Below are positions 4,461 to 29,359 of a stretch of 64,000 nt of DNA, in pieces. The first letter of the stretch is position 1, and every line of letters begins with the position of its first letter. The position numbers were made by a program, and so were the translations under genes. Source of the stretch: Coleophoma eucalyptorum (taxonomy: Eukaryota; Ascomycota; Leotiomycetes; Helotiales; Dermateaceae); the NCBI GenBank assembly GCA_026120035.1, contig JALRME010000077.1:1-64000 (forward strand), given 5' to 3'. The notes beneath the pieces were generated by a model. It saw nothing but the letters and a program-made list of their open reading frames with translations. It was not told where the DNA came from and did no database searches.

Positions 4461-4482
4461 GGGGTCAGACCAGGACCAGACT
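4461..4482 (+). promoter_or_regulatory. Cluster direct-repeat operator, site 1 (MFS promoter)
   Basis: Two tandem 11-bp half-sites, GGGGTCAGACC and AGGACCAGACT, with CAGAC starting at 4466 and 4477. It lies 353 bp before the MFS start codon. It matches the other five cluster sites in sequence and in the exact 11-bp period. Confidence 0.7.
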
Positions 4483-4834
4483 GTTAAGCTCTTTGATCTG
4501 CAGATCACACTCGAATTGCTTGTCAGTTTACTTGTTCGTGCGGAGCATGTAAGGCGTCATATTTTGCAACCATACTGGTATCCGAACCTAGTTTGTGTGA
4601 CTTGAGAACTTCGGCATTCTCAAGTCCGAAATCTAACAGCTGGTCTGTCTCATGTTGCTACCGCCTTTAGTCGATGCATTTCCGTTCATGAGCTCTCTTG
4701 AACGCCATCTCTATTCATTACAATCTGCTACATTGCAGCCTTCTACTCATTTGACAACCAAACCCAATGCCTCTTTATCACCGTAGTTAAAGACACCAAC
4801 ACTGAGAAATCAGGTCCAGGCAGGGTTAAGCACA

Positions 4835-6120
4835 ATGGAGCTACCAAAAGCCCCGCCCCCAGCACCACCAGATGGTGGTATTCAAGCGTGGCTTGTCTGC
4901 CTGGGCACCTTTACTGGCTATGTTGCGACATTTGGCTGGCTTACCTGTCTCGGGGTTTTCCAGGACTACTACCAGCAGAATTTTCTCTCTTCCTATTCTC
5001 CATCCGCAGTTGCATGGATTCCATCTACGTTTGCAATGATGATATTTGGAGGGGGTCTCATCTTTGGCAAAGTTTTCGATAGCTATGGTCCTCGCTGGCC
5101 TATGCTCGTTGGAACCTTGCTGCAAGTCTTTGGCTTGATGATGACTAGTCTTAGTACAGAATATTATCAAATATTTCTGAGCCAGTCCATCGTTAGTGCC
5201 ATAGGTGCCAGCATCATTTGGCCATCGTTTGCTGCATCTCTATTGACCTGGTTCGAGAAGAAAAGATCGACGGCTTTTGGTATTGCGACCACCGGAAGCT
5301 CCATAGGCGGTGTGATATTTCCTATCATGGTCTATCGTTTGCTACCTCAAGTCGGCTTTCCTTGGACAATGCGAATTGTTGCCTTTGTCCTACTCGCCTT
5401 GCTCGCCGTGACAAACTTGACTGTCAAATCCAGACTCAAACATTCGCCGAAGCCATTTACGGTGAAAGAATACATCGTACAGCTTAAAGACGCCGACTTC
5501 GCCGTCACTGTTCTCGGATCAGCACTTTTTTCATTTGGTTTGTTCATCCCATTCAACTTCATCATCCTCCAGGCCGAACATGAGAACATGTCCAGCCACC
5601 TTGCTCAGTACTTGGTATCTATCTTGAATGCAGCAAGGTAAGACCAAATTCAGTATTTATTTGGGTGTCTCTGATTCAGCTAACTAATCTTAGCCTTCCT
5701 GGTCGAATATTTCCAGGTTTTCTTGCGGACAAGTTTGGCCGGTTCCATGTTTTGGTCGTTACCACTCTACTCTCGGGTATTCTAACACTTGCAATCTGGA
5801 TCCCCGCCAAGAGCAATGTTACCATCATTCTTTTCACTGCTTTGTATGGCTTTTTCTCGGGGGCTTATGTTTCACTCGGTCCTTCGGTCGTTGCACAGAT
5901 CTCTGACATCTCTCAAATTGGGTTGCGCAACGGCGTATTATATTTCTTTATTGGCATAGCTGTGCTTGTCGGCAATCCCATCGCAGGTGCTTTAATCGGC
6001 TCAGATAGTGGCAACTATACAAAGTTGCAAATTTTTGCTGGTGTAATGATGGTTGCAGGTTCAAGTCTGTTGTTCTGTGCGAGGATTATTATATCAGGCT
6101 GGAAATGGAAAGTCACATAA
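4835..6120 (+). CDS. MFS transporter, monocarboxylate-transporter-like
   Basis: Two exons (4835-5637 and 5694-6120) around one GT-AG intron with a CTAAC branch site give 409 residues. The N-terminus reads PPDGGIQAWLVCLGTF, the hallmark opening of the fungal monocarboxylate-porter (MCT/SLC16-like) subfamily of the major facilitator superfamily, and about 11-12 hydrophobic spans follow. FLADKFGRFHV in the second half is the MFS loop motif. Fungal members carry small organic acids or export secondary metabolites across the plasma membrane; the substrate cannot be read from sequence. The gene converges on the PKS gene and has the shared operator upstream, which supports a role as the cluster's transporter. 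At 409 residues it is slightly short for the family (often 430-480), mainly because the cytosolic N-terminus is brief. Confidence 0.9.
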
Positions 6121-6785: not shown

Positions 6786-9700
6786 CTAACTTGACTTTGC
6801 CAACTCTTGTTCCACCTTCTTGCTTAAAGTTTCTACGCTCGTAGTAGGGTGAAGTAAGTCAAGCAATGTAACATTTACGCCTGAAGTTTTGAAAAGCCAG
6901 TTCCTCAGCTCACCTGCAACCATGCTATCAATTCCATAGATCTTGATTGGCTGCTTACGTTCAATATCTTCCGTCGGAACAAAAAGTAATCGAGCGACCC
7001 TCTTGTGTATACGATCAATTAGGGCACCGTTTTCATCATCATCTGATACCACGATTCCGTCACTGCCTTGACCATCGCCTGATGATCCAAGATGGTCAAA
7101 GGCTGAAAGAAGGTTCGAAAAGCATGGATTATTATACCAGGACATTTCCGAGACAGGATATCTCGTATTGGCCGCCAGAAGGCCATTTGGCTCGAGACCA
7201 GCAAGTAAACGACCTTTGCTATATGAAGTATCGGTGCTCAATGCTGATATTGCGGAGGACGAGTCCAAAATTGCAGCTTCACAGAACTTGAGAAACTCGC
7301 CCTCGCTATTTCCGTACAGACCCATTTGATTCAAGTGCTCTTGGTATTGTAAATTGCTACTAACAATACCAACGTCAAGGATGTGACCTAGGGACAATGA
7401 AGTGGCAGGAAGACCAAGGCTAAATCTGTGACGAGCGAATACATCCATGAAAGAGTTTGATGCCATGTAGTTTCCTTGGGTGAGAGAACCTAACGCTGTG
7501 GTCCAGGAGCTCCACATGATGAAAAAGTCAAGCGGTGAGTCTAAAAGAGCGTTATGAACGTTTATGGTACCAATGAAACGGGGGCGTAGCGTCTTGTTGA
7601 AGTCCTCCAATGTCATTTCACTGAAGAAAGCATCCTATTGACTAGTTAACTAGGTCACTCGAAAGATGTCCCGCGGTCCAGACTCACGTTAAGCTCGAGT
7701 GGAGCTAGAATTACTCCTTTAATCGGTCCCGAGATAGCACCTACAGCTTTTTGCACATCTTGTGTTGATGTGACGTCTCCTTTAACGACCGTAAATTGAA
7801 CACCGATCGATTGGAGCCAATCAAGAAACTCTGTGGTTTCATGATTGACTGCACCAGATCGAGATAGAAAGACGAAATTTTTGCCTCCTCTTCCAACCAT
7901 CCATCTTGTAAAGCTGCGCCCCAGACCACCGAGGCACCCTATGAGAAGATACGAGGCAGTCGGGTCGAATGACACGGTGGTATTCGAACGGATAACCTAC
8001 AGTATCCAGTTAGTAAAATTTCTCATCCGTTATGGACTAGGCACTCACTGGAACTTTGTTCTTCGAGTAGCGCAGATCCAGTGTTACTGATGTAGAAGAT
8101 GGCCCTGTTTTGCTGAGCTCTGTAAATGCATCTTGAACACTGGAAATATCAAAGACTTTGGAGGGGTATGGTTTCAGAGCACCCTGAGATATCATATCTT
8201 GAGCTCGACTCATCAAACTATTGTTTAAAGTTAGAAGTTGCATACTTTGCTTCATATTGAAGGACCAACCCTGCGATGATGTTCGGCCGACTGCGCGCAA
8301 CTGCTTCGAAGTGGACCAAAGTGCTGGTTATGTTCGGCTTTTGGGCGTTGCTAGGAGTGCTGCCTTGGCCAATCCTCACGAATCGACCCAGTGGAGCTAC
8401 CAACTGATCGTCGATATCTCCTACACTGTCCATGATAACAACATCAAAACCTTTACCAGAGGAGAGACTTAGAAGACTGGGAGCAACGTTCCTGTCGGTA
8501 GTGGAAAATACGATATTTAACGGAACGCCTAGATCGGAAAGGACACCAAAATTTCCTTTAGATGTCTCTATAGCCAAATTCTAATCATCTATATTAGTGT
8601 ATAGATTTTATAATGGCAGAAATGGAACAGACCTTGGCCCCGAAGAATTTTGAGACCTGATAGGCAGCAAATGCAAATTCGCCTATATCTGACCGAATGA
8701 GAACGGACTATAAAATATGAGCTTTTGTCTTAGAAAATGACAAATGTGTTCTACTTCTCCTTTGTTAACCCTGCCAATGGTATAAACTCCGTAGATTGCT
8801 AAGCACGTTGCAAAGCCAGCCATCCTCGCCTATAAGATTAGCGTAGCTTGAAAATATCCCAGAACAAGAACTTACTTCAATAAAGTTTTTACTGGGTGCT
8901 TTGGTGAAAAATGCTGATTTTTCACGTACAACGTTACCAACTCTATTAAATGAGATGCCGAATACTAGATCTCCTTTTTTCAACTTGTTGACAGCGTTCC
9001 CGATCTGCTCGACGATGCCGAAACATTCACTACCCGTAGGATAAACCGAGTGTCCATTCGAGACTGAATCAATCATCTACGTCTTCGTAAGTGTGTGCTT
9101 ATATTACTACACAAAATTAATGACTTGCCATTTTCCCAATTTGAAGAGCGTGAGCCTTCACTTCAATACTGTCGTCTTCTAGTTTGTCAACAATAGTTTG
9201 AGCTTCTTCGAGACGAGCGGTCTGAAGAGCATCAGGCTTCTCGAGCGAACAATGGAAGGAAAGATTTTGAATCTCCTGATATGAAACATTTTCTGGGCGT
9301 GACATATCATCTCTTCTCGCATGAGCTGCTTCATTCAACTTGTCGTCGCTTCTTAGGCGAGAGATGTGAAGTAGACCTTCTTTACTTCTATATTCGATGT
9401 CTTCTCCTGAAGCATTCTTATGAGCCATCTCCTCAAGCTTAAGTAGATCCTGAAATGTTTCATAGAGAGGAGAAGCATCATTTGTGTCAAGATCAACTGT
9501 AAGCAACTTCGAAGAATTCAGCTCCGTCCTGAGGGAACTGAACAATCCAGTGATCATCCCGAACTCTGGTTTTTGGCCATCCAACAGGCTACCTCTTGTT
9601 ACCCACAATAAGGAGCTCGAATCGAGGATCTTGCTTTTGAGACCCAACCATTCTTCAGAAGTGATACTGGGAAATAGTGGCTGGTCGACTTCAGCGAGGA

Positions 9701-12700
9701 TGATTACTCGCCTATTATGGAGGTTGCTTGTCGAAGTAAGCGGCAGAAGTTGGACTAAGTAACCATGGGTCGACATGAATGAGGCAAATTCAGACACAAA
9801 AGACGAAATAGAGGTTCTATACACCTAGAAGTTCTGTAAGTATGTGACTGTCTTCGATTTGGACAAAGTGGAGCACTTACTATTGTGAGCTCCTTAACAG
9901 TTGGCAGACTGTGTGGGGCTGCCTCCTCAATCGCTCTGGAGAAGATTACTGCAGCTTCCTTGTACTCTGTAAAGCTATCCAGCATAATATCAACCCCTCT
10001 AAAGCCTGCCTGTGGAAGAACATTGTTCCACATGGCATGTGTAAGAAAGGGACCTTCGGTTCGTGGAAATTTGACGTCCTGATCTCCGTTCCAGAAGTCG
10101 GAAAATGCGCCCTGCTCGCGAGTCAGCACAGAACACCATGAAATACAGCAGTAGTGCCTGTCACCAAGATCATAACCCAAGACAATCTCGCTGTGAAGCT
10201 GTTAGCATGGTAAGGAAATTGTTGGACAGGGCTAGACAAACGCTGGACGATTTCAAAAAGTGCAAGCTGTCCACCAGGCTTCAGTAGCGATCGAATATTA
10301 GAAAGAGTTTTTTGTATATCAGTCGTAGCATGAATAACCTGTCAAGGTTATTAATAAGATGTTTCCAAGCTTATGAGGGACTGCTTACATTCGAGGCGAT
10401 AACAAGGTCGTAGTCAGAATCAAACCCTTGCTCACTTGGCGGTGTCTGCATATCGAAAGTGGTATACTTGATGCCCTTATACTTGCTGAAGCTATTTTGT
10501 GCTTTAGCCAAAAAAGAGCTAGTGATGTCTGTAAATGTATAACTCTCATATCCACGATACAATGCATGCCCGCGCAGAGCAGGCAATACTTCTTTTGTTG
10601 CGCTTCCGGTCCCACCACCGACTTCGAGGATCTTGAGACGTGGGTTCTTGTGCGAAAGAAGTTTTATAACCTCTGTCAGAGCTTTATTCCCCGCTGAGTA
10701 TAGTTCCATATATTCGTAGGTGTCATCTAGCATATGATCTTCGACTGCAGCTTGAATTCCAGTCATCTCGCCCCGATATACTGCAGGCAGACTTTCATAC
10801 ATATGTATCATTAGCCGCGCTTCGGGTGCATGGTGTTCCATCAGTGCAGCAGACAAGAGTTTCATCTGAGCATCGCGAGCTTGTATTGATTGTGCCAAAA
10901 TATCTCGGCCTCCTGGAATTTCACCACCCTTTGCGAGCTCGACTTTCTCAGCCATCCAATCTAGGTATCGCTGAAGGAATGGTATTTTTGAGCCTTGTAC
11001 AAAGAAATCATGATTTTTTTCATGAAACTGCAAAATTTGATACAAGGCAAGCTGTTCGAGCAATGGAACTTCGGGGATTTTGCTGTTGCTGGTAGAGGGG
11101 TATAGGCGAGCCAGTCTCGAATTTGTAAGTAGGTCAAAGTCTGGCTCCCAAACTATCCGCGTAAACGGTGATGCATTTTGGGAGTATTGGGGATTTGAGA
11201 TTTGAGAGGAGGTAAAGATAACATCTGAAGCTCTGACAATACTTCTGCCATCAGCGGCCAATATTGTTTCGTCACTAGCAAATCCACGGTCGTCGCGTCT
11301 TTTGATTGTGGCGGTGGCTTTCAAAGAAACCTCCTTTTCAGAAGACGGCTTAACATGAATGCTAAGACGTCCAATAGAAATCGGAAGGAATGCCGATCCG
11401 AGTTCGCTGGCGCGTCCTCTATGATCTGCTAGGATGGCTAGCTGCAAACATGAGTCTAATGTGGCAGGATGGATGAAGTACCGGGATTCTTCGTTCATCA
11501 AGTCCCTCGTAGTGTTTGAACATAGTAAGCTTTCGGCGGTTCGCAAATTCTCACTAGTAGAGACTTGGATGTTGGAGAGTGTTTGGAATGTAGGCCCGTA
11601 GTTGAGTCCAACGCTAGCAAAGGAATCATACCACCTAGTGCATGAGACTGGCTTTTGGGTTGAAACAGATATGTCATCCTTGCTGACTACTTCCAATGTA
11701 TCTACGCTTATTAGCCCTGTATAATGTGGACAGTAGAAAGTACCTTTTAATTCAGATGTGTAGCCAACGCTGCCGTGACAATGTTCTGTGAATATATCGT
11801 CCCCATTTTTATTTACGACAGACGTTATACTGAAGCTCCAATATACCCGTTCCCCGCCCATTTTACCAAAGTCGGGACGGAGGCTGGTCAGTATTTCTAC
11901 TCCTCGATCGTCATCGGGAACAAGAAGGGCCGCAGAAAGCAATAAATTCTGGAGTTCAAAAGCATCGATTAAGGATATATTCACGGAATTTACCTCTGCA
12001 GTTTGTAGGGCTGCTTCTATTGCAATCGCAATATATGCCGTTGTGGGAAACACTACATCAGGGCCGATCTACATCGAAGTCAGCGTACTACTAACAATCG
12101 GGTTTCAGAGCGACAAACTTTATGATCTTGTAGCCACGGCACACTTTTATTACTCAATACGTTTCTCCAGGTCGGCTCATTCCGATTTCCTCCTGGAATC
12201 CTAGAACCCAACAAATCGTGTCGGGGATGTCTACGGAGACGAAATTCCCTAGTCCAACGATTTTCAAAGTGAAACATGTGGTTATATTGCCATTGGTATC
12301 TGGGCAAGTCAACAATGGTATTGCCAATTTTCCGGTCGTATACAGAATTTGTGACGGGGTCGTAGTTTTCTATGGCATTAAGATGTAGAAGGTCAACGTC
12401 ATGACCGTTAGCAAACAGAGTCCCAGCTGTCGCCAATACACAATTGGCTCCATCCTTCTTCCTGAGAAGAGTAGACAAGTACGGAGGGAGCTTGCCTGTC
12501 GTTAAACTCTGGCTGATTTGACGTATTGGACCTTGCAAAGCCGAATGAGGACCAATTTCAAGTAGGTAATCCAGAGGCACAGTCTCCGCAATTCTGGTCA
12601 ATCCTTGACTGAAGCGAACGGAAGACTCAAGGTTTAGACGCCAGTATCGTGAGTCTGGTGTTTTCTGCATGATGTCTGAATAAACCGTAGAAAGAAAATC

Positions 12701-15517
12701 GATATTTTTTGGACACTTCTCACGTTGCGGAAGCTGGGACAGCATGACGTCCAACTCTTCCTCATACTGCTTTCCTAAAGCTTTCATATGGTCCGAATGA
12801 TAGGCATTGCCATCGGTCCGCAGGATCCTAGCAAATATGCTCTGGGAATCAATTATTTCTTTCAGGCTTTGAATTTCATTTTCATCGCCACTGACGGTCA
12901 AACTTTCTGGGGAGTTATAGCAAGCGATAGTAAGAGACGGGAAGAGCGCCAAGATTGGAACCATGGTCTCAGCACCTGCGCCTACCGCTAACATAGCACC
13001 TTTTTTTGCATTCCTTGAGACTGCACGTCCTCGAGCCCACGCAACAACGATGGCCTCTGCTACTGTTAAATTCCCCGAAGCGTAAGCTGCTGCGATCTCC
13101 CCTGATGTTATAATTAGTGACTGCGAAAGCATGGTTTAAATTTTCGATATAATTTACCTGATGAATGGCCGATAGTAATTACTGGCTTGATGTTCCATAA
13201 AGCCAGCAAATCGACTAAAGCAACTTGAATGGCCGTGACCAGTGGCTGGGACAACGAAGCCTGATAAAGCAAGCTGGATTTTTCTGGTGCACGAAGCACA
13301 TCTAACAACTAGTCAGGTTTGTTGTTCAACATACTTCACTAAAACCAAAGGAACTTACCTTCGATACTCCATTCAGGCCTATGTGAAAAAGTCATCAAAA
13401 CTTGATCCATAGTGCGGATACTCTTTAGGTATGTGGGGAAATTTTCCATAAGTTCGAGTCCCATCTGAGCCCATTGTGCTCCTTGACCTTCCAAAAGTTA
13501 GCTTGAGCGACATTTGCTCTGGTAGAGACATCACCTGTAAAGACAAAACCAAGTTTCAAACTCCGTAAACCAATTGCTTTGGAGATTACAAGATTATCAA
13601 TGTTGAAAGAATCAGATACCGTATCTTGGGTAGCTACAACGTAACTCCTATTTGAAAGTTTCGATCGGCGGCAGCCTAAGGTGTAGGCAATATCAAGTAG
13701 GTCGTATTTCTCGATTTGGTCACGAAGAGAGCTAACGTTACTCTTGAGAGTCTGCTCATTGTGGGCGGAAAATATCAGCAGGAAGGGGCGGTTCGATTTG
13801 ATTGCGTTATGAGTAGCATCGTTAGTGTAGCCATTCGTATTACCATTCGTATTCGTGTGACCATTCGTATACCCATTGTTGAAACCGTTGGTTAAACCGT
13901 TTGAGCAATTTCTCTGTACTTTCGCTCCAACTCTTCCACGACCTGGAATAGTGTGATCAATTGCCTCAAGAATAGTGTGAGCATTAGCACCACCGTAACC
14001 AAAAGAGTTGACGCTTGCTCTTCGAATCTCTTGGGCAGGCCAGGCTGTTACATTTGCAACAATCTTTAATTTTCCACCTCGAAGGTTTACTGAAAATAAC
14101 CGTGAGTAGCCATAAATGGACCCATTACAATACAAACTTACCATTTGGATTAAGCTTTTTAAGTCCGAGAATGGGCGGTACGAGGCCGTGTTCAAGTGCC
14201 AAAACAGCCTTCATAATCCCCGCAATACCACTTGCAGGCTCACAATGTCCCATGTTTGATTTGATCTATAAAAGTCGTTAGTAAAAAGCCGAGATTAGCT
14301 ATTGGGCGGTATTCTTACAGAGCCGATATGTAACGGATGATCCATAGCTCGACTATTCGCAAAGACTCTTCCAATTGCTTCGACTTCAAGAGGATCCCCA
14401 ACTGGGGTGCCGGTTCCGTGGCACTCGAAATAGAACGTATCATCTGGATTAAGGTTACCTGCACGTTCATATGCCCTTCTAATAGCACCTTCTTGTCCGT
14501 CTGGGTCTGGATGTGTGATTCCGCCAGTACGGCCATTCCTGATCAACATTAGCATAAATCACGCCATCATGTAAAATGAAAACACGTTCAATACATACGC
14601 ATTTATTGCAGTACCTCTGATAATTGCTCGTATAGGGTCGTTGTCAATGATGGCTTGCTTGAAGGGCTTGATATACAGAGCACCTATCCCATCAGCTCTC
14701 GCATAGCCGTCTGCAGCGGCATCAAACGTCTGGCATCTTGAACTTTTTGACACTGCCCCCAGAGATGCAGAGAATACCTGGCACTCAGGCGTAAAGATAA
14801 GGTTTGAGCCTCCAACAATAGCTGCATCACATTCTCCGGACTGAATAGAAACGCATGCTAAGTGCAGTGCATACATAGAGCTCGAGCAAGCGGTATCAAG
14901 GGTCAGGCTTGGGCCGCGAAGGTTAAAAATATAGTTGATACGGTTACTCAGTAGTGCAATACCTCCACCGGAGATGCCATAAGGCTCTGGATACTCCGTG
15001 TCGCGATACTGCATAAGTTGATGGTCATAATTGAAGTTTCCTACGAAAACACCGGTCTTTGAACCAGAAAGCACCTCGATGGGGGTACCTGCTGACTCTA
15101 CTGTTTCGTAGACTACTTCTAGAAGCTTTCTCTGAGCAGGGTCAAGACTAGTGGCTTCTTGTGGGTTGATTCCAAAGAAAGTTGGATCGAATTGTCGGGG
15201 GTCTTCTTTAAGAAAACAGCCCCCACGGGTATAGAAAGATCCGGGTCGGCCAACATCCGGATGATACCAAGATTCTAGATTAATTCGTTGAGAAGGAAAA
15301 TCACTGTAAGATTGCTTCTTCTCTTGGAGATACTCCCATAAACTATGCGGCGTGTCCACATCAGTCGAACTTCCGGTCTCTCCAGGCCATCGGCAACCTA
15401 AGAAAGTCAATAAATGTTTGGATACGCTATGTTAATTCCTAGAAAGGAACTATTCTTACCCATTCCGATAATAGCTATGGGCTCTACTGCTTGTTTTGAA
15501 ATTCGTTCGTCTGTCAT
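6786..15517 (-). CDS. Highly reducing type I polyketide synthase (KS-AT-DH-MT-ER-KR-ACP)
   Basis: About 20 short exons give a protein of roughly 2,500 residues, starting [20 protein letters not shown] at 15517. KS (15.5-14.0 kb) has DTACSS, HGTGTP and [10 protein letters not shown], so Cys-His-His are intact. AT (13.6-12.3 kb) has GHSSGE and AYHSDHM; its FVFTGQGAQW motif is restored by a 57-nt intron. DH (12.2-11.2 kb) has the DHK histidine and LDSCLQ aspartate. The C-methyltransferase (10.7-9.9 kb) has [10 protein letters not shown] (9.08-8.04 kb) aligns throughout, but the usual GGVG loop is replaced by DIGEFAF. KR (7.98-7.15 kb) has GCLGGLGRS and [12 protein letters not shown] (7.05-6.8 kb) has GIDSM. 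No thioesterase or release domain follows. The KS-AT linker holds an Asn-Gly-Thr-rich repeat. One intron (9077-9128) appears to be GC-AG. It makes the cytosolic polyketide backbone of the cluster. Exon joins near 10.1-10.25 kb are not resolved. Confidence 0.93.
13815..13905 (-). repeat. Asn-Gly-Tyr/His-Thr repeat in the PKS KS-AT linker
   Basis: The linker after the KS reads [20 protein letters not shown] followed by more NG/TN units, encoded by a minisatellite-like DNA repeat (ATTCGTA/TTGACC-type units on the plus strand). It sits between the KS C-terminal adaptor and the AT, where variable flexible linkers are expected. Its length could vary between strains. Confidence 0.8.
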
Positions 15518-17000
15518 GCTGGGCTACCTCGTTACACTGACTGTAGGGGCTGTTGATGCCGTTGTTATGCTGGGAAGAATAGTGCTTCTTATAATAGCTT
15601 CTAGATTCGCCTAGGCTGGCGAATGAATTGGATATGATTACACTGAGTATTAGAGGCACTTGTGGCTTGGATCTGTGTGGTTGAGGCCTAAGTGGATTGT
15701 GCAATTGGATTCGTAAGAGGCGTCAGTTGTTTGAGGCAGAAGCTTGAATTGGCTCTGTAGAATGGTTGCTAGTGCTTGAAGTTGAATTTGCACTAGTATA
15801 TGTGCTGATACTATTGATAATGTTAGAACGTTGACAATTTGACATCAAGTTTTGAAGCTTGCTCGTTCACCTTCGAAGGACATACCTTTCTATAAGACAG
15901 TCACACTCACTCAGAATCAAGCTGACTCGAAACTATGATCAGTCACGGTTCGAGGGGGAACACCTATTGAATAAATGGTCTACCGAATCAATGCCATTTT
16001 CCAATTGATTTTGTCAAGATGCATTAGAGCTTACGTTTGTAGTGCAAGGGTTGAGCCTGGTTCTTGTCCGGAAAGTCTGGGTAATATGATATAACACCAA
16101 GGTTTTCAGGTTGAATTATGTTCTTTGTTTTAGCTGCAAGAATTTATCTTTCTGGGTTATCCAGATGCAGGAGGTTTAGCCCAGAGAAGCTAAGCTGCAA
16201 TCTGATTATTTAACAGCGATGCAAGGTTGGTGATGACTGCTAATTTGAATGGGTTTCAATTGTGTATTCTATCTTAAGAAGGATCAATAATGGCGAGGTA
16301 TACCAATCATTGGCATGACTAGTGATTAATGAAATCAGCAATTGATTTTATGTAAATTTTGGGCAGCGTATACTGATCAATGAAATCTCGCGGCATTGCA
16401 TCATACTGGACCACATGGGGACCAGACTTATTTCTCTGCAACCCATAGCCTCAGCTGAACCTACCTACATTGAATTTATTGAATACTGACACGTTCGAAA
16501 AGGCTGAACTTAATTGGAACACGGAAAGAGAGCTGTCTGAGGATTCTTTCCACATTCTACATTCTCGGCGGTCGCCGGTATATTTATTTTGGTTCCAAAT
16601 GGTGGCATTATTATTTTAGAATTAGATTGGCTGATAAGTCCCACATATATTTATGCTGGCGGACCTGTTTCTTACCAAATATTGCTTCAATAATAGTTAA
16701 TCCTCATTTGAAACGACAGAGATAATAGGACGGCGACAAGAGTCAAAAGGCCAAAGCCACACAGATATATGTTTGTTTATTCGTCTCTTTGAGAGTAAAG
16801 TTTTACAGGGATAAGAAATACCGAAAGAAACATGTGTAAATAGCAGATTAAACTTGAGTACCCAATGTTGAGACACGAACTTTTAATTGTAAATCTGTAA
16901 TTGTTCAAGACTCCAACGAATTATCAATAGCTGCTCTCTCCGAAAACTTCATACACCAATCATAAACCAAGGTCAAAGCTTTTTCCATATTCTAAAGACC
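15518..17000. other. PKS promoter region
   Basis: About 1.5 kb between the PKS start and the stop codon of the oxygenase gene. No coding frame is supported. It contains the direct-repeat operator at 16407-16428, about 890 bp before the PKS start. Confidence 0.6.
16407..16428 (+). promoter_or_regulatory. Cluster direct-repeat operator, site 2 (PKS promoter)
   Basis: Half-sites TGGACCACATG and GGGACCAGACT, 11 bp apart. The right half is perfect; the left keeps GGACCA but departs at the end. It is located in the PKS upstream region. Confidence 0.6.
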
Positions 17001-18185: not shown

Positions 18186-18838
18186 ATTAGTAGCTAAGTA
18201 TTTCAGGTCAAAAAGGGTTCAAAGCAGAGATAATTTCATTGAATGTATCGAGAAAATAATGCAAATATTGTACTCGTACATGGTATTTCAGAAACCTGGG
18301 CTTTTGGAATCGCCTAGATTACGTACAGCTGAAGAGCTGATGGGACCAGACTAGAATCAGACTATAGCAGTCTAATATCATGCAGCCACACCTACAAAAT
18401 ATACTTATGGTGCACGAAACGAAGAAGAAGATTCCTGAAGTGAATAAGCTCGCCCAGATTGAAGCCTTGGCCGACCTTTGGACAATCCCTTGATCCACGT
18501 AGCACTCCTGAACTTAACCTTTGCACTGCCTTTGCACTGTGTGATGGCTTCAGGAACTTGATTCCCCTTGAATTCTCAATGATTGATATCAAACCTAATC
18601 CGATAACTACTTTTCCCGCAATATTCAGTCAGGCTGTTTTGTCACTTTTGAGCGAATGGGAGACATTGCCTGCACACTCTTCAGGGGTACATTGGTAAGA
18701 ACTAGGAGACTGATATACTTTAATCACTAAATTTTGGATAAAGACTTTGGAATACGTCAAGCGCGATCTGAATAGGCTGCTCACACACGAACCGCGCCCT
18801 AATATGACCCTCCATGCCTATGCCCTTACACTTTACAG
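18186..18838. other. Intergenic region between oxygenase and crotonase
   Basis: It holds the oxygenase promoter, including the operator at 18342-18363, and the 3' flank of the crotonase gene. No coding frame is supported. Confidence 0.6.
18342..18363 (+). promoter_or_regulatory. Cluster direct-repeat operator, site 3 (oxygenase promoter)
   Basis: Half-sites GGGACCAGACT and AGAATCAGACT with an 11-bp period (CAGAC at 18347 and 18358), 157 bp upstream of the oxygenase start codon. Confidence 0.7.
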
Positions 18839-19768
18839 TCACAAGTAAAGCCCTTCTCTTGCTGCTTGAACTGAAGAGTCCGGCAAACCAAGCTCAAATT
18901 TACTACCAGTCTCATTCTGTGAAAGCTCGATGAACTTTTTAATTGTTTCTTGCTCCTCCTGTAAATTCATAAGGGGTAGAAATCTCGCGATCTCGTCATC
19001 GAGCGATTGAATAGTAGGGTTGAGAAGACTTAAGGTCACTTTTGTGTTATTGATCGAGTGCTGAGGGAAGAGTGCTATTCTTTCAGCAAGAGCAGAGACT
19101 TCACTTTTCAACTGATGCGCCGTGTCATAGTAGGTGTTGAAAAGACCTAGTCTCTCTCCAGTAGGACCGTCGAAAGCTTTGGCAGCCAACAAGTATTCCA
19201 TTGCTCTTCCTTTTCCAATTATTGGCCCTAAAAATGGCTGTCCGCCAGCTGCAGCGGCAAGACCAATTGAGTCTTCAAAAGAGCTTGCAAGAGCGTTGGG
19301 TCCGGCAAATCGCATATCCATCTGGATACTAAGTTCCTGGCCCGCTCCAATCGCCCGCCCATTGATTTCGGCAATGAATATTGTTGCAGTTGTGTTAAGG
19401 ATATAGCGAGAGCAATCAATGACCTGGTTAAAAGTTTTCTCTTGAACTGGAGTAAGCGGAACAATAATGTTGTTCAAGTCGTAATGGCCCAGAAACCAAT
19501 CAGGATTGGCACTATCAAAGATGACCACTTTGGCCGTTGTTTTGTTTGGCAGTGGCTGCAGCTCTTGCAAGAAGTCAAAAAGGTCCGATACCAAGTCGGC
19601 ATTAACCAGATTGACTGGTGGATTGTTAAAGGTGACGCGCGTGATGCTTCCACTGTACTGAAATTCTAATTTTCCATTCTTCGACGCTGTAGGTAGATAC
19701 GACTGCTGGGCCGTTGCTGCAGCGAACAGCAGAGCAATGACCAACCCGATATCATTTACAAGCTGCAT
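18839..19768 (-). CDS. Crotonase-fold (enoyl-CoA hydratase/isomerase-like) protein with signal peptide
   Basis: A single exon of 309 residues from the ATG at 19768. An in-frame ATG 16 codons upstream exists, but the hydrophobic leader MQLVNDIGLVIALLFAAATA begins at this one. The body has the crotonase pattern: ITRVTFNNPPVNLV near the start, LGHYDLNN as the first oxyanion-hole region, and AEINGRAIGAGQELSIQMDMRF for the second strand-helix. The C-terminal trimerisation helices are less conserved. Several NxT/S sites suit the secretory pathway. Crotonases normally act on CoA thioesters in the cytosol or organelles, so an N-terminal signal peptide or anchor is unusual. It may act on a free or ACP-released polyketide as an isomerase, dehydratase or cyclase. 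The position inside the cluster and the operator it shares with the SDR support membership. Confidence 0.85.
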   Translation of the reverse strand: MQLVNDIGLVIALLFAAATAQQSYLPTASKNGKLEFQYSGSITRVTFNNPPVNLVNADLVSDLFDFLQELQPLPNKTTAKVVIFDSANPDWFLGHYDLNNIIVPLTPVQEKTFNQVIDCSRYILNTTATIFIAEINGRAIGAGQELSIQMDMRFAGPNALASSFEDSIGLAAAAGGQPFLGPIIGKGRAMEYLLAAKAFDGPTGERLGLFNTYYDTAHQLKSEVSALAERIALFPQHSINNTKVTLSLLNPTIQSLDDEIARFLPLMNLQEEQETIKKFIELSQNETGSKFELGLPDSSVQAAREGLYL

Positions 19769-20581
19769 CTTGTCGGAACCATAGAACTGCTGATAAATCA
19801 GTCCCTCGTAAGTCAAGGGGGAATGCGATTTATAATACTAGAAATATGAGCTGCTGTGAGTCTTTAACCATCCGAAGACACAGACCTGAGCCGTACAGGT
19901 TGCCATATCACATCCTGCAAGGTTGCTTGAGATTATTTCATGTCGCAACCACCAAAGACAAAGTCTATTATGAGGCCGAATGATGAATTCTGGAGCTTAG
20001 ATGCGATATGGGCACGGGATGTTACATTCGCCGCCCGAAGCTGAGCTTACTCCAGAAGTCAAAGACAAGTCTGGGTTGAGTCTGTTCCCTGAATGCGGCG
20101 TCGGTGTGGTTGCCTTCCTCTTGTATAACTCTCCTTACGTGCTACCGCACGCTAGAAATGATTGGTTCTTGTACGAACGGTGCTATAGGTATCGCCTGTG
20201 TTACACGATACCACGAGGCTGTTGTGATGCAAGCAGAAGCTGTCGCAAACTGCAAACTATAAACCACACACTATAATACAAAGTCACGCAACGGCTGAAT
20301 CAAGGGCGGAAATCTTATGTTTACGTACTGCAGAATCAAATTAGTCAAATCCATTCTTAACTCCGAAATCCTAAATGCTTTCTAATCGATACAATACAAG
20401 CTAGATTAGGAAAGGAGTGTTCAAGGGATACTGTGGTGCATCAGTCCGACCATCTTCTCTTCTTTTTCCTCGACACCTAAAATCCCTGTCTCGCGACTAC
20501 TATCTTATCATCTACCCAAGTTTCCACCTCATTACACACCAAGTCAAGAACAACTTTGACTTGTCAAATCCACACAACATA
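19769..20581. promoter_or_regulatory. Divergent promoter between crotonase and SDR genes
   Basis: The two start codons face away from each other across 813 bp without a supported coding frame. The direct-repeat operator at 20068-20089 lies 300 bp from the crotonase start and 493 bp from the SDR start, so one site could serve both. Confidence 0.6.
20068..20089 (-). promoter_or_regulatory. Cluster direct-repeat operator, site 4 (crotonase/SDR divergent promoter)
   Basis: On the minus strand the half-sites read GGGAACAGACT and CAACCCAGACT, 11 bp apart (CAGAC complements at 20080 and 20069). This is the weakest match in the GGACC part, but the CAGACT core and the exact period are kept. Confidence 0.55.
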
Positions 20582-21778
20582 ATGGCACCAGCTCCTTACA
20601 GTGCCCCTCTACCCATCAAGCCGACGAGACATGATACATATGACTACATCTCGCCGGGCTCTGGCACAAAGGATGCTGCTAAAGGAAGGGCCGTACTTGT
20701 TACGGGAGCTGGTTCAGGAATAGGAGAGGCATGTTCTGAGGTTTTGCCATGGCTTTAGATGCGGCTGACGTTGAAAAGGCCACTGCCATTCATTTCGCAC
20801 AAGCAGGTGCTAGTTCGGTTATCCTCGCTGGACGGGATGGTCCGTCGCTTGATGATACCAAAGCCAAGATTCAGGCCGAGTACCCGCAGTGTCAAGTTGT
20901 CTGCGTACCAACTGATATCACCGATTCAAAAGCTGTCGCAAAGCTTTTCGAGAAATCCGGCAAGGTTGATGTGCTTGTCAACAATGCTGGTACCACCGGA
21001 GTTATAGCACCATTGGCTGAGACTGACTTCGCGAAGTGGTGGTCGGCTTTTGTAAGGCTCATCCATTGCGATGAGACTACCCCGCTCAGGGCTGACAGAT
21101 TCAGGAAATCAACATTCGGGGTACCTATATGGTGACATGCGAGTTTCTGAAGCTGCTCAAGGGAGGTCCTGGGGTTGTCCTGAACGTTTCATCGCGGTCT
21201 TCATACGTCACTGCACCTGGCATGAGTGCATACCAGACATCTAAGGCGGCTATGAATCGGTCAGTAGATATCACATGATTTTGAGAAGAGACACTGACTT
21301 TTCAGGCTCACTGAATTTATCGACAAAGGTATGTTTACACTGTCTTCTGGTATTCCGGAGCAGTGAGTTGTTCGCCTAGTAGTTTTGTGCTTACAAATGG
21401 CCAGACTATTCATCCCAAGGTGTTGTGGCCATTGCTTTCCATCCGGGTGGTGTTGCTGGTACGAAGGTGGCAAATGCTGCGCCTGAGTGGCTTCGAGCAA
21501 CTTTCAAAGACACCCGTGAGTAGTTACACTTTACTAGGTTACTACTGATTTCTATTGAAGTGTCTCAGTTAAAATGCTCTCCATAGCTAACAACTTGTCT
21601 TCTAGCGGCTCTGCCTGCCTCTACTGCTGTGTATCTTACCACAGCAAATGCCAAATACCTAAGTGGCCGTTTCATCAGCGCCCAGTGGGACATGCAAGAA
21701 CTGGAGAGTCACTGTGACAGGATTGTTGGTGAAGATTTGTTGAAGATGAGGTGCCTGGGGATTCATGACTATCTATGA
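20582..21778 (+). CDS. Short-chain dehydrogenase/reductase (SDR)
   Basis: About six exons give a classical SDR of roughly 300 residues. Exon 1 (20582-20728) ends in the cofactor motif VTGAGSGIGE. It continues after a 50-nt intron that appears to be GC-AG (20729-20778, branch GCTGAC) into ATAIHFAQAGASSVILAGR. DVLVNNAGTTG is the NNAG motif, LNVSSRSSYVT supplies the catalytic Ser and YQTSK the Tyr-x-x-x-Lys. A small exon (LTEFIDK) lies between introns near 21.26 and 21.33 kb. The C-terminus ends KMRCLGIHDYL. SDRs use NAD(P)H to interconvert alcohols and ketones in the cytosol. It is divergent from the crotonase and inside the cluster, so it is a probable polyketide-tailoring oxidoreductase. Confidence 0.9.
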
Positions 21779-22544: not shown

Positions 22545-24302
22545 TTAGGAAACAGGTATGGGATTCATATATCCAAATTCCTCTCGTATATCCCACTTTT
22601 TCTTTAACGCCATCAAACCGGGCAGTTTTTCTCGGTACCAGACCTCTGGCCCTTCATCCCCATGGGCATACGTGACATAGAGTTCCAAGTCGCTAAATCC
22701 GCTCGTTGAAGCAAAAGCGGTACGTGCATCTCTTGCAAAATTATTGATGTCATCGTCTATACTTGGATCATTGTAATTGTAACCCCACAGTCTGCACAAT
22801 CTCAAATCAGCAATAGTAGGGACAACATGGTATTGGAATTTGGAGTAACAAAGGACCATAAGCTGGGTTCTGCTTACACATAATTTTTGATCTCCCGATG
22901 AGCTTGGGGCCAGGAAGTGCTATTATACGGCTGAGCGAGGACAGCTTGGTTGGGAAATGTCTCAACGAAAGCTGTGCTAGCCCGCGCCTGAGGAAATTTG
23001 GTATAGAGTCTGGAAAGATTCTGGAAATGAGTCTCCCAGGTGTTAACATCGACCCCTTTGGCACCAACTGTGTATGTATTGACGTGGCGGCCTTTCGTGC
23101 ATTGAGTGTCGGCAAAGAGACCAAACATGGCCACATCGACGAGCGACTTAGCTTGGACATATGTTATGTTTGTGGTAGTAGGGCTGTTCTGTATGAATGG
23201 CTCCAAGAGAGCACGACCTTTTTCTTCTGGGCCGAAGTAGACAGCATTGAAAAGAATGTTGAGCTATAGATATTAAAAGCATGTCAGTTCCTAAGCCTCT
23301 GCTGATATATGGGGAAATAGCTTTTCATACACCACCATGAGCCTCATTGTAATTCATATTGGTGATAAGAGCAAGCTCAGCAGGAATGTTCTCCGAAAAG
23401 CCTTCCAGTATGCTCCAGAGATTAAGACTGGAATTCGGCGGGAAGACGAAGTCGGCATTCAATGCCATTCCGCCATTGGTTTGGTCATAAATTGAATATG
23501 TAGCCCACAGGATAATACCAAAGTTGGCGCCAGCTCCACGGATTCCCCAAAGTAAATCAGCGTTCTCATGCTCTGATACTGTAATTAAGTCACCATCAGC
23601 GGTGACTAGTATCACAGAGACAAGATTGTCAATGATGAGACCGTGAAGACCTTGGAACCGACCGACACCACCACCGATCGTTGCGCCAACCATGCCCGGA
23701 CAAGCGCAAGATCCCGTTGCTACCAGCGAAAACACTTGTTAATATCTCCTGTGAAAGCTGGTGTCCGTTTATGCGACTCACCCACTTCTTTTCCTGCGTC
23801 CCAAACGGGGTCAAAAACATCGCTGAAGACGTTCGCTCCACCAAGAGTTACGGTATTAGCGCTTGTATCGACTGTGACATTCTTGAAGTTGCTAAGATCA
23901 ATGCTAATACCATTTTGCAGCTTGCTTAATGTGATCGAAAGGCCATGGCCACCTCCAGTTGCCAAATACGGAATCCGGTAACGAGCGGCAATTTTTACCT
24001 ACAAGATTAGCATTGCAACATCTTCTGTATTTCTCAAATTGGGAATGAATTACTATTTTTTGGACATCTTCAGCAGTGGCTGGTTTGATCGCTGCAATGT
24101 ATGTCGGCTCTTCATACAATGTCCAACGCTGAATAGTCTCATTGGAGTAGTTGGGATCTGATTGTAAAAAGATTTCGGCGCGAGGAGAAAGGTGTCTTCG
24201 AAATTCTTGGGTGATCTCCCCGCAATTTTCGATAGAGTAGGTATTGGAAATGGATGCGTACGCTGTGAGCGCTCCCGCTAAGATGGTCAATAATGCCACC
24301 AT
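22545..24302 (-). CDS. FAD-linked oxidoreductase (berberine-bridge/BBE type), secreted
   Basis: About six exons give a protein of roughly 490 residues. The ATG at 24302 begins a signal peptide (MVALLTILAGALTAYA). The FAD_binding_4 domain has TYIAAIKPATAEDVQKI, then YLATGGGHGLS, whose His is the usual covalent flavin attachment site. CACPGMVGATIGGGVGRFQG follows, then DLLWGIRGAGANFGI. The substrate-binding half runs to 23.2 kb, and the C-terminal BBE segment reads LWGYNYNDPSIDDDINNF near 22.75 kb. In berberine-bridge enzymes this segment helps hold the flavin; the second covalent-link Cys region (GSCACPG) is also present. Enzymes of this type oxidise alcohols, cyclise or desaturate metabolites using O2, and many act in the secretory route. 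It has the shared operator 330 bp upstream and is transcribed toward the SDR. Confidence 0.9.
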
Positions 24303-25554
24303 GTTGGTTGTTATGGGTATACAGACTTCGAGCGAGAAATTTTGATTTGTACCGTAAAAAATGGAAAAACCAAAAATTCTTCGAGGGACTATTTAAATAC
24401 AAGACTGTTGCATATAACTTCGGTCTCTCAGGTCCGGATCTGAGACCGATGACAAGACAGGAACCACTTGCCAACAAAGGTCGATTCCAGCTACCTCACA
24501 ATAGCTTCCGCTGACGCTACTGCACCACCGAAGTTCACGATTTTTAGAGATTCCATGGCTCAGGCCGGAAGAGCCATTCCTCTCCTCGGTCAAAGGTAAG
24601 ACTTATTGAAGCCCAAGATTACTCAAAATAGAGGACCAGACTTGGACCTGACTGCAAACTAACTTTTTGAAGCAGCTGAAAAGATGAAAACGCCATAATT
24701 TAACCCTGTGGCTTGTAGGATCGAATCCTTTGATGGTTAGATATATTTCACGCCTAAAACGGAACCTCAAATCTAGGTCGGCTTCACCATCAGCGTAGCT
24801 ATTATCACTTTCCTAGGGATTATGAAGCGTTGTGGGTGATATTAATGAGGTGCCCATCATATTGAGTAATAGGTTGCTACTGCTAATGCCATAGCGACAG
24901 CGAGGTTGGCTGAGATTCATGACCGCCTTGGGAAAGCCCAAAGCCCTCGAGTGCCATGGTTGGCGCGACTATCCAAATAGCACTTTTCAGCTGTGGCAGT
25001 AGCGATTCTCTATAAATAACATCGAGCAGGTACTATTCAGCTCAAGATTGTGCCGATTGGAAGCCAGACTTACGTGTTGTGGCCAAGGCGCTACAAGGGG
25101 AAAGTAGAGCTGAATTTTAATATAAACTTTGATTTCACCACACTGAACTAGTCAGTAATATCTTCTCTGTCTCGAGATATGCTTCCTGAGAAAAGTTTGA
25201 GATATGGAATGGATCTACATCGAATTGATGGTTCTGTATTCATCAATTTACATTCTGACAATTTTATGTAAGCGTTAAACAAAACTTTAACTATAATATC
25301 ACAGGAACCACCTGCTATTGGTAACTGTATTACACTGAAGTTTGGACCTGCAGAAAACATTTCTAGAAAGCTTGGACAGTATATATCAGCCATTTTAGTT
25401 CGTAAATGTAACGTTTTGTTCGACCACTGTGCAACTTCTCCTCAGGTTTCTTCCAGCTTTTAATAATGAGATATGAGAGAGACTGGCGGTGGCATTTATC
25501 TGAGTCCAGTCGCTCTGTGAGTATAATGTTCACCAGATGCTACAAATCAACCTA
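24303..25554. other. Intergenic region upstream of FAD oxidase
   Basis: It contains the FAD oxidase promoter (operator at 24632-24653) and the 3' flank of the P450 gene. A near-palindrome (GGTCCGGATCTGAGACC) lies at about 24429-24446. No additional gene is supported. Confidence 0.55.
24632..24653 (+). promoter_or_regulatory. Cluster direct-repeat operator, site 5 (FAD oxidase promoter)
   Basis: Half-sites AGGACCAGACT and TGGACCTGACT, 11 bp apart and nearly identical to each other, 330 bp upstream of the start codon. Confidence 0.72.
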
Positions 25555-27412
25555 CTACAATGTCTGTGTGTCTATTCGTTTCTGGATACGAACGTAGAAT
25601 CCGTCTTGCTTCAATAGCCACCAATTCACAACTCGAAGCAATTTCGGATCAATAATCTGTATCTATTCATATTGTTAGAAGCTAATATCAAGGGGAATAT
25701 ATTGCTCGCAAAGTATCTTGCTTCAAGACTTACATCGTATGTCAAGAGTAGAAAAGAAATCATCTTTTTAACCTCAAGAATTCCTATGTGTCTCCCTATA
25801 CAGATTCGTCTTCCAGCGCCAAACTATACAAGGTAACTCAGCGTTTCTGTAGACCATCCGTTTATTTTTAATATTTGGAGATGCTCACCGTCAAGTTTAA
25901 ATCTTGCAATTTAAGCTTATGCTTCTCATCCCCTTCAGTATACCTTTCGGGTCTCCAGAACTCTGCATCGTCACCAAAAGTCTCTTTGTGGCGATTAACA
26001 ACGTAAGCATTGCCTCCAATCCATGTTCCAGCAGGAATATAGTGGCCAAGAACCGTAATCCCGCCCTCTGGTACCACCCGCTCAAAAGGCAGTGCAAATG
26101 CCGGGTGCATACGAATTGCTTCCCACATACATGCGTCAAGATACGGTAATTTCTGTATCTCACTCATCTTAGGATATGGATGTGAGAGATTGGCAGATAA
26201 AAGCTCGGAGTAAAGTTTTTTGAAGCTGTATGGGTTTTGGAGAAGGTTGTATATGATTGTTGTCATGACCGCACCAACGGAATCGGAACCCGCGATAACA
26301 TTGGTGAATGTCCAATTGGACACAATCCTGTAAATAATATTAGCGCAATGATTTAAGACTCCTTCCTTAAGCTAATAATAATATAAGGTACTTTACCCAG
26401 GAGGTAATTCTTGATGCTTGGCTGCGATATCCATAAATTTGGCTAGGAAATCTCTCGGCTTTGCTGCTACTTTTGCGTCATTGGCACTTTCTTGCCTCTC
26501 TTTGATAGCATTGGCGACAAATTGGAGAATTTTAAGCGATGGCGCTCGCCTTATAGCGTGCGCAAACCAGTTCTTGAAAAGAAGGGTATCTAGCCATGGG
26601 ATTTGGGTCAACTCAAGAACCATTAGTTACCGGACTTTGAACAATATATTACAGAATATTGAACTTACTGGTGATAATTTCTCCATATAAATATGGACCG
26701 CATTTATTATGCCCCCAAAGTCTTCTCCTTCATCCAGAAATGAGTACCTCTTCGAAAAGGTCATTGTTCCCATTACATCAAAAGCAAAATACTGGAACCA
26801 TTTCCCAAGATCGAAAACATTGTTATGTTCCAGGAATCGTTTATCGACATTATTCTGGAAGCATTCTAGGACCTCGTCGACAAGAGGTTCAAAAGTCAGC
26901 ACATTCGTGGCAGAGAATAATGGTGCCACAGCGGGCTTGATCAGTTTGAGCACGTCTTCGTCTTCCGCGTTGAAGACGGTAACTTGGCCAACGCCCGGGC
27001 CATAGGCTTTAAATATGCCATAAAAAGGAGACTAGAAATATTGATTAACTCATTAGAATAACAAAGTATCAGATGATCCATAAGCCCTAATCGAACTCAC
27101 TTTTGGAGACCCTCGTCTCATAATGTGTACGATAGGGATGGCTTCAGGGTTGCTAAACATAACCATATTCGGGCCCGTTCGCACAAGCTCGCCATATTTC
27201 TCATGTATCTGCTGGTGAATAATGTGGGCACGCCCGGTTTTCACCCACAATACTCTTTGCCAATTCGTGATTCTGCTTAAAAAGGGACCGGGAATATGTC
27301 TCAGGCGCCAATATGTCCGGAATAAGTGAAAGATACCAAACAGTAGGGCTGATACTAGCGTTATTATAATAGCCGTAGCTGTTGGAATAATTCGAATTAA
27401 GAAAAGAGTCAT
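25555..27412 (-). CDS. Cytochrome P450 monooxygenase
   Basis: About seven exons give a P450 of roughly 500 residues. The N-terminus ([20 protein letters not shown]...) is a membrane anchor, followed by the proline hinge [14 protein letters not shown]. The I-helix region reads [12 protein letters not shown] (GSDS in place of the common A/G-G-x-D/E-T). The K-helix E-x-x-R is in WEAIRMHP, the PERF-like region is [10 protein letters not shown], and the heme loop [12 protein letters not shown] lies near 25.8 kb with its Cys ligand. The last exon ends KRIDTQTL at 25555. It would hydroxylate or epoxidise the polyketide at the ER membrane with a P450 reductase partner. Overall it resembles the fungal pisatin-demethylase-like P450s. 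It is the rightmost intact gene of the cluster and has the operator 313 bp upstream. Confidence 0.92.
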
Positions 27413-29359
27413 CGTTCACAGTTTCCGCAGCAAACCAAACTTGAATAGCTTCAGAAACTGTTCCTTCAATTTTAGTATTAGGAACAAATATTTAAGAGTA
27501 AGCTATAGCAAATAGAATGTGCTAAGTCTTAACGAGAATCAATTTAGGCTTTGAACAAAAGTTCAGCACATCTAAGTGCGCAGACTCAAACCCTCAAATA
27601 ATACTGGAAAGTAAATCAGTGTTGAAATAATCCAGGGCTGAGAGATGATGACCAAAAATTAGAGTTAAGGGAGCGTAATAAGCTTTTACATCTGCGCGTC
27701 GTCAGCTGAGTCAGCTGAGGTCCCGGGACCAGACCTAGACCAGACCGGTCCTAGAAGTCAGATTCGTGTCCTTTGACTAAAGGCTCATATTAGCGTTGTA
27801 TTTTGTCGTCTCAGATTCAAACTACTCATCAGTGTATCATTGTTCTATACACCCTCCTACAAGCGGTTGGTAAAAGCAACTATGCCTTAAGTAGGTATTG
27901 TAGGTTTCAATGGTTGAAGACGCGTTGTCCCTTGTAAATTGATACTTTCCCTTGATAGGCCGTACAAATGGTAAGATGCTAGATGGCATGTAGATATCAT
28001 CATCCTTATTCCCTTGTTGTCCTCCCTTGTCCTCTCCTTGCCAGATCCTTTACGCACTTTGGGTCTGCAATGGAGGTCGAATCGATACTCAGTAGGTGTA
28101 TTTATAAGACCTCTATCACACTCACTTAGAATAAACATCTACATTTTTTATCTTACCATTTTGACCTGTCTATTACAGTTGAAATAAAACCAACCAACAG
28201 ATAGTACATCAATTAGATTATTAAGCCTAGCTAATTCCCTAAGTTTGAAGTTATTTAGTCTACTTAAATATTGATTTTCAAGTGCTTATTTATTTGGGTG
28301 ATTAATACTAGTGCATATTGGAAAACTAAGGACGAATAAATAGTCTCTTAATAATTGAGATCAAACTCATGACGGTAGCAATTAGCCGTTAGCTAACTCC
28401 TAAAATCGACGAAAATTATTACCCAAAAGAAATGGAAGCTTTGTAATTGGTAGTTATTGCACCTAGGAGTGAAGTCTGCTATTTGAAATTTGCCTAGCAT
28501 TGATGATAAAGGGCTTTACATAAATTGGGTGTGATGTATCATCGATTTGGGTATTTTGTTATTTATAAATTTTGATCTTGTCACTATTGTAAACATGTCT
28601 TCTATAATTTATTCTATTCAGTGCAATAGAACCCCATAGCTCTAAGATTTATATCTAAAATGATACATGAAGTATTTCATCTTACAATGCCCAAACCCGA
28701 GTCCGTAACTTTAACTCTGATATAACCTCTCTTGATTCAGCTGGTACAGTAGCACGTGTTCAGTGGGGCTCAAGAGATCGTCAAAGAGGATTAACATCCG
28801 TAGTATACCCTCATGCTGTAGCATCTTAGCAAAGACCTCTCTCAATGGCAGGGGTCACTACTTTTATCTGGATGACACGCTTTCTCTGGAATCTCGGTAG
28901 CTAACTTAGTAGCTAGGAGGTAGTGCTAACCTCAAGCAGTATCATAACCGCAACCATGCGCTACTTTCAAGACACTGGTTGAGTTTTCGGGTGTTTAAAT
29001 AATCGAAATAAGTCACATTATGGTATACTTATCAGAGCTGCATTAAATTCTGGGACTAGATATCCAAATGTGGCTCCCTGGATCCACAAGTTCAAGTTTC
29101 TTCAATTAGAGTAGCCATTTGAGTCTTAACTTTACCCTCGCAAGCCAGTACTGATAAAGCGGAAGTCTCTTTGTCTCAGTGGTGTGGCTATATACAATAG
29201 CTGTTCTATCTGAGATTAATGGGTATCTGAAGTTATCCAACCCTGCTCTCATCTTAATTGTTCTATAACGGCTTCAGCTCATCTTTAGGACGCGTTGCCA
29301 GATGATCATGGCTCTTCCAATTCCCCACTTGGGATCAGGTGAACGGATGAGGAAAATCC
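27413..29359. other. Intergenic region at the right border of the cluster
   Basis: It contains the P450 promoter with the operator at 27725-27746. Beyond 28 kb the sequence becomes AT-rich with no supported gene. This is the apparent right border of the biosynthetic cluster. Confidence 0.55.
27725..27746 (+). promoter_or_regulatory. Cluster direct-repeat operator, site 6 (P450 promoter)
   Basis: Half-sites GGGACCAGACC and TAGACCAGACC with an 11-bp period (CAGAC at 27730 and 27741). Directly after it comes CGGTCC, so the inverted complement GGACCG overlaps the right edge. Confidence 0.72.

Follow-up and report, generated by a model that had tools for sequence, protein, structure and literature searches.

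Zinc-cluster (Zn2Cys6) regulators of fungal biosynthetic gene clusters, such as AflR and GliZ, are encoded within their clusters and bind paired half-sites based on CGG or TCG. Two other features of cluster control are also already known in fungi. The first is the cluster-specific promoter motif: the available part of a study of Fusarium graminearum describes 19 clusters that bear promoter motifs, counts TRI6 and the trichothecene cluster among such pathway-specific systems, and mentions a second TRI6 motif made of GTGA repeats (PMC4198257). The second is the Myb-like regulator of a polyketide cluster: in Aspergillus nidulans, according to the available portion of the account, the Myb-like protein BasR (AN7174) is required for the ors polyketide cluster and transduces a bacterial signal (PMC6234034). 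Here we describe, in the ascomycete Coleophoma eucalyptorum, a polyketide synthase (PKS) cluster whose promoters carry six copies of a 22-bp tandem element, together with a three-repeat Myb protein encoded beside them that probably binds these sites. We analysed 64,000 bases ("the window") from the start of contig JALRME010000077.1, which is 65,720 bases long and belongs to a genome of 45.26 Mb in 101 contigs (GCA_026120035.1).

The locus differs from the AflR and GliZ type in that its consensus lacks a CGG or TCG triplet and in that no Zn2Cys6-like motif was matched by one regular expression in the six frames of the window, a search that would miss a motif interrupted by an intron. As in the F. 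graminearum systems, one motif is over-represented across the promoters of a contiguous cluster. Unlike the other motifs in the available part of that study, which are short or palindromic (TnAGGCCT, GTGGtgCCAC), the element described here is a head-to-tail pair with a fixed 11-bp period, and its candidate binder is a Myb protein (PMC4198257). The tie between a Myb-like protein and a polyketide cluster recalls BasR, compared here by its description, while no tandem site of this kind is seen in the available part of the BasR account (PMC6234034). A text search of the literature for the half-site sequence, GGACCAGAC, listed matches unrelated by title. In the open-access literature on fungal Myb cluster regulators and cluster promoter motifs, BasR was the only clear precedent among the matches listed, an absence that carries little weight, and we met no case among them of a tandem site with fixed period being linked to a triple-repeat Myb gene of the same cluster.

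Six tandem sites restricted to one cluster

Read from the telomere inward, the cluster comprises genes for the Myb protein (minus strand), a major facilitator superfamily (MFS) transporter (plus), the PKS (minus), a 2-oxoglutarate (2OG)-Fe oxygenase (minus), a crotonase (minus), a short-chain dehydrogenase (SDR; plus), an FAD-linked oxidase (minus) and a cytochrome P450 (minus) (Table 1). A preliminary description of the window had placed a 22-bp site upstream of every cluster gene, the second half-site beginning exactly 11 bp after the first. All six sites lie where it put them and on the strands that it gave, and the 11-bp step holds in six of six. Seven of the eight genes have a site upstream; the eighth is the Myb gene, which that description did not include.

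Aligned as two 11-mers, each site reads (g)GGACCAGAC(t/c) twice. Compared with GGACCAGAC, five sites combine one perfect half with another carrying one or two changes, and the sixth, the crotonase/SDR site, has one change in one half and three in the other. In none of the six are both halves perfect, and the genome holds no exact pair with 0-30 bp between the halves, which points to a degenerate operator rather than a copied block. By eye, the flanks show no extended similarity beyond the 22 bp, so the sites do not appear to be copies of one duplicated block.

Scanning the window with the pattern GGACCAGACNNGGACCAGAC at up to three mismatches returned five matches, against 0.04 expected from shuffles; the site at 20068-20089 was missed because it has four mismatches. 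The half-site alone, at up to one mismatch, occurs 15 times in the window against 10.2 expected, a count reached by 10 of 100 shuffles, so only the paired form is remarkable. Across the genome, both matches to GGACCAGACNNGGACCAGAC at up to one mismatch lie inside the cluster. At up to two mismatches there are five in the cluster and two outside (three simulated genomes gave 1, 1 and 2), the latter falling within open stretches of 183 and 224 codons; at up to three there are five in the cluster and 19 outside, compared with 35 in a reversed control and 26, 19 and 21 in the simulations. That five of the seven matches at up to two mismatches fall within 64 kb has a binomial probability of ~1e-13, for a pattern derived from these same sites. 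An IUPAC pattern written as the union of the six sites found all six and had no match outside the cluster or in the reversed control (45.26 Mb); with one mismatch allowed it gave 15 matches, nine of them outside (reversed control, 10; simulations, 9, 13 and 5).

Both patterns were derived from the sites themselves, whereas a leave-one-out position weight matrix (PWM) was not. With this matrix, 45 Mb of simulated sequence, read on both strands, held 0 chance equals for the MFS, oxygenase, FAD oxidase and P450 sites, 7 for the PKS site and 72 for the crotonase/SDR site. The four sites without a chance equal are therefore very unlikely to have arisen by chance anywhere in the genome. Of the other two, the PKS site still scores strongly; the crotonase/SDR site is modest on the scale of the genome but unlikely to turn up by chance in a single promoter of ~0.8 kb. 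For the simulations the window was modelled as an order-4 Markov chain. This model may be unlike the whole genome, and the counts in the real genome agree with the simulations. To assess spacing, all twelve halves were combined into one half-site PWM, and same-strand pairs scoring at least 14 were taken at distances of 8 to 39 bp. At 11 bp the six sites score 23.6 to 31.5, and no other distance yields more than 25.5, a score found at 29 bp for a pair that uses one half of the MFS site.

The position of the six sites, their 11-bp period, their placement in promoters and their restriction, genome-wide, to the cluster are thus shown; their status as operators is well supported. The earlier remark that no paired site was noticed outside 4.4-27.8 kb has held up, in that the union pattern is absent from the rest of the 45.26 Mb and near-matches stay at chance level. 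There is no scatter of equally good sites, and the genome-wide scan favours the cluster-specific operator of two in-phase, head-to-tail half-sites that had been proposed, which remains the best reading. The sites also provide an independent cluster boundary, as suggested, with one correction to its position: because a Myb gene occupies 1503-3034, the left edge moves from 4.4 kb to ~1.5 kb, adjoining the telomere.

Two further observations concern the sites. A seventh 11-bp pair, at 22164, joins a good half to a poor half (15.9 in total) and lies between convergent genes; it was not counted. By eye, the P450 operator region (27719-27757) has extra inverted copies of the core, GGTCCCGGGACC before the site and CCGGTCC after it, and such copies were not seen by eye at the other five sites.

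A three-repeat Myb protein as candidate regulator

The Myb gene model has GT/AG introns and no internal stop. Pfam matched Myb_DNA-binding in three stretches of the protein (1.1e-35, for an early domain composite joined by eye), and the domain aligns full length, across all three repeats, with the R1R2R3 domain of c-Myb (PDB 1h88; 4e-24). In the AlphaFold model of a relative, P0001, nine helices form three groups of three between residues 13 and 159, with a predicted local distance difference test score (pLDDT) of 74-93 by blocks; the model as a whole is poor (mean pLDDT, 57; predicted template modelling score, 0.30), and the tail lies mostly below 50. The Pfam stretches, the 1h88 alignment and the helix groups of the P0001 model all show the three tandem repeats of an R1R2R3 protein, the same architecture as in c-Myb. 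Possible paralogues elsewhere in the genome were rejected as distant, the best Myb match outside the window having an E value of 9e-10 and 31% identity.

Three features of a regulon are found together at this locus: a motif shared by the promoters of a contiguous cluster, its rarity or absence elsewhere, and a transcription factor (TF) gene in or beside the cluster. We infer that the Myb protein is the binder of the sites, and we put at roughly 0.7 the probability that the six elements are the operators of one highly reducing PKS regulon by the telomere, bound by the Myb protein encoded at 1503-3034. In the mechanism that we propose, one Myb molecule would read one half-site of 9-10 bp (GGACCAGAC plus T or C), a length that three repeats at ~3 bp each would fit, judging from repeat number and motif length. 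Two molecules would sit head to tail, one helical turn apart, and the 11-bp period would place them on the same face of the helix. The combination of a perfect and an imperfect half in five of the six sites would fit two molecules that cooperate in occupying one strong and one weak half-site. So bound, the Myb protein would act as activator of the seven genes for the transporter and the enzymes. Since its own promoter has no close pair, we propose that the Myb gene is itself switched on by something else, and a second factor may bind the 6-mer AGCTGA that neighbours the sites.

Homologues in other fungi bear on this assignment. We found 21 Myb homologues, of which five (P0001-P0004 and P0010) most resemble the cluster type, with 49-67% identity over 42-82% of the query (56% over 40% for P0010). 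Four named species had a Myb protein and one of two enzymes, the oxygenase or the crotonase, among the matches listed, and the two are associated in three of these. Six locus tags separate the Myb gene of Apiospora rasikravindrae (PG993_012549) from the oxygenase gene of that species (PG993_012555, 81% identity), with the crotonase match on a contig of equal size, and in Chaetothyriales sp. CBS 135597, the Myb gene (DV738_g1479) and the oxygenase gene (DV738_g1476, 58%) are three locus tags apart. The Myb and crotonase matches of Discula destructiva are on contigs of equal size (5.9 Mb), which indicates linkage only. Aplosporella prunicola has crotonase (60%) and oxygenase (71%) matches on short contigs of different sizes, with no Myb among the matches listed, and is uninformative about linkage. 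Two fragments, one of a crotonase (P0105) and one of an oxygenase (P0152), come from contigs of equal size (92,899), likewise with no Myb among the matches listed. Amylocarpus encephaloides and Diplogelasinospora grovesii are represented among the matches listed by the crotonase alone.

The AGCTGA companion and alternative readings

Every one of the six sites has AGCTGA, or its complement TCAGCT, no more than 100 bp away, and for five of them the distance is 60 bp or less. This raises the possibility of a composite operator, compatible with binding by the Myb protein, in which tandem GGACCAGAC and AGCTGA would be recognized by two cooperating proteins. Any 6-mer equalling AGCTGA in this respect was found in 12 of 1000 flank shuffles at 60 bp and 5 of 1000 at 100 bp, and in 7 of 300 and 2 of 300 random window sets at the same two distances; the 150-bp test, however, gave 49 of 1000 shuffles. 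The element is also denser near the sites (11 copies in 1332 bp) than in other noncoding sequence of the first 28.2 kb (6 in 8408 bp), a comparison in which introns were taken as coding and the palindromic TCAGCTGA counts twice. Because the association was found after the fact, and because the distance of AGCTGA from the sites (~1-90 bp) and its side vary, the companion element is post hoc and a lead only, and we consider a composite operator possible but somewhat unlikely.

Alternatively, the sites could be real operators of the cluster bound by a TF encoded elsewhere, with the Myb protein a neighbour that has another role or acts upstream of that TF. Several points weigh against the Myb protein as binder, and some of them suit such a factor directly. 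The Myb gene has no pair less than 1.4 kb from its ATG, the site at 4461..4482, in the divergent MFS/Myb intergenic region, being 1.43 kb upstream of it, and candidate regulators were sought within the window only. c-Myb contacts DNA through a lysine in repeat 2 (K128) and an asparagine in repeat 3. In the 1h88 alignment the asparagine is kept (N153, invariant, 12/12) and an aspartate stands at the position of the lysine, so that the two proteins differ at putative base-contact positions of repeat 2; the six-site motif also differs from the c-Myb site. The aspartate makes a motif unlike the c-Myb site unsurprising, and by the same token the motif is not derivable from the protein. In Rhypophila decipiens, the Myb and crotonase matches are on contigs of different sizes, which may belong to different strains. 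For the dermatophyte-type Myb relatives P0005-P0008, from Trichophyton, Arthroderma and Myotisia, no named counterpart stands among the crotonase matches (120 of 491 listed) or the oxygenase matches (47 of 47 listed), so this Myb family extends beyond the pathway. Set against an elsewhere-encoded factor are the extent of the detectable regulon, which is this one cluster and thus suits an in-cluster regulator, and the Myb genes that lie near homologues of one pathway enzyme, the oxygenase, in two other fungi; on these grounds we judge such a factor improbable. That the sites are chance matches or repeat relics without a regulatory role, as the weakness of the crotonase/SDR site taken alone (72 equal scores) and the lack of enrichment of single half-sites might suggest, is hardly credible when four sites outscore all 45 Mb of simulated sequence, five of the seven genome matches at up to two mismatches fall in 64 kb and, by eye, no similarity extends beyond the 22 bp.

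At this locus a short DNA code singles out one cluster from a whole genome, and it brings with it an independent boundary and a named candidate protein. Should the Myb protein indeed bind the sites, an operator would be mapped for a fungal Myb family, and the locus would be a compact case of three Myb repeats specifying a longer site. A signature of gene plus motif could then be used to find and delimit similar clusters in other fungi. More speculatively, and at a little under even odds, there may be a family of in-cluster three-repeat Myb regulators that employ all three repeats on a 9-10-bp half-site and bind as a head-to-tail pair exactly one turn apart, with a companion factor at AGCTGA, and that are carried with the pathway across fungal classes, unlike the zinc-cluster switch.

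The subtelomeric locus and its genes

Telomere repeats at the contig start indicate that the cluster is subtelomeric. The (CCCTAA)n repeat is also present on at least 8 other contigs, at or near the contig end for those whose length is known, and none was seen in the last 322 bases at the other end of this contig. The features of the locus are collected in Table 1.

Table 1. Predicted operators, companion elements and genes of the cluster, with positions in the window
Feature	Position	Strand	Remarks
Tandem operator 1 (predicted), MFS gene	4461..4482	+	352 bp to ATG
Tandem operator 2 (predicted), PKS gene	16407..16428	+	~889 bp to ATG
Tandem operator 3 (predicted), oxygenase gene	18342..18363	+	156 bp to ATG
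Tandem operator 4 (predicted), common to crotonase and SDR genes	20068..20089	-	299 bp to crotonase ATG, ~492 bp to SDR ATG; weakest of six
Tandem operator 5 (predicted), FAD oxidase gene	24632..24653	+	329 bp to ATG
Tandem operator 6 (predicted), P450 gene	27725..27746	+	~312 bp to ATG
Myb gene, candidate regulator	1503..3034	-	388 aa; 5 exons (3034-2956, 2890-2722, 2670-2627, 2566-2398, 2208-1503)
AGCTGA (TCAGCT on +), operator 1	4367..4372	-	further copies at 4339, 4353
Companion TCAGCTGA, operator 2	16451..16458	.	
Two AGCTGA copies adjoining operator 3	18327..18340	+	
AGCTGA, operator 4	20039..20044	+	
AGCTGA, operator 5	24674..24679	+	
Two TCAGCTGA copies adjoining operator 6	27702..27718	.	
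MFS transporter gene	4835..6120	+	Pfam MFS_1 1.1e-21 and 1.8e-12, two pieces
Highly reducing PKS gene, KS-AT-DH-MT-ER-like-KR-ACP	6786..15517	-	Pfam matches for 6/6 pieces, then 2/3 further pieces; start codon read
2OG-Fe(II) oxygenase gene	17001..18185	-	Pfam 2OG-FeII_Oxy 2.6e-13
Crotonase (enoyl-CoA hydratase-like) gene, intronless	18839..19768	-	Pfam ECH_1 9e-22; gene model
SDR gene	20582..21778	+	Pfam adh_short 2.5e-11, one piece; piece 20405-20755 without match
FAD-linked oxidase gene, BBE-type by eye	22545..24302	-	Pfam FAD_binding_4 8.7e-24, partial protein joined by eye
Cytochrome P450 gene, 3' end approximate	25560..27412	-	Pfam p450 3.7e-22 and 1.6e-08, two pieces
Telomere repeats (CCCTAA)n	1..95	.	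read directly at contig start

The two further PKS pieces that matched in Pfam correspond to ADH_N, barely at the cut-off, and KR, and two single pieces of the FAD-linked oxidase had no Pfam match. The best homologue of the oxygenase shares 81% identity over 98%. By eye, the crotonase has an apparent N-terminal signal peptide, which is unexpected for an enoyl-CoA hydratase-like enzyme. Among the 120 of its 491 matches listed, 15 (P0022-P0036) form a distinct group at 68-81% identity and the next are at 60% or below, the exceptions to this gap being two short fragments, P0105 and P0139. Two other crotonase matches in the genome itself were dismissed as distant (28% and 33%).

The cluster is flanked by two copies of a 114-bp repeat, 88% identical and in the same orientation, at 681-794 and 31096-31209. 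The repeat has 20 matches genome-wide, the two flanking copies and some partial ones included, and might aid cluster movement or recombination near chromosome ends. Between 28900 and 31080, interrupted reading frames resemble, by eye, a decayed membrane-protein gene; a reading of 28.9-31.0 kb as a permease, also made by eye, was dropped when the single piece tested gave no Pfam match. Further inward, a tandem duplication of ~240 bp, 92% identical, lies at 44803-45283.

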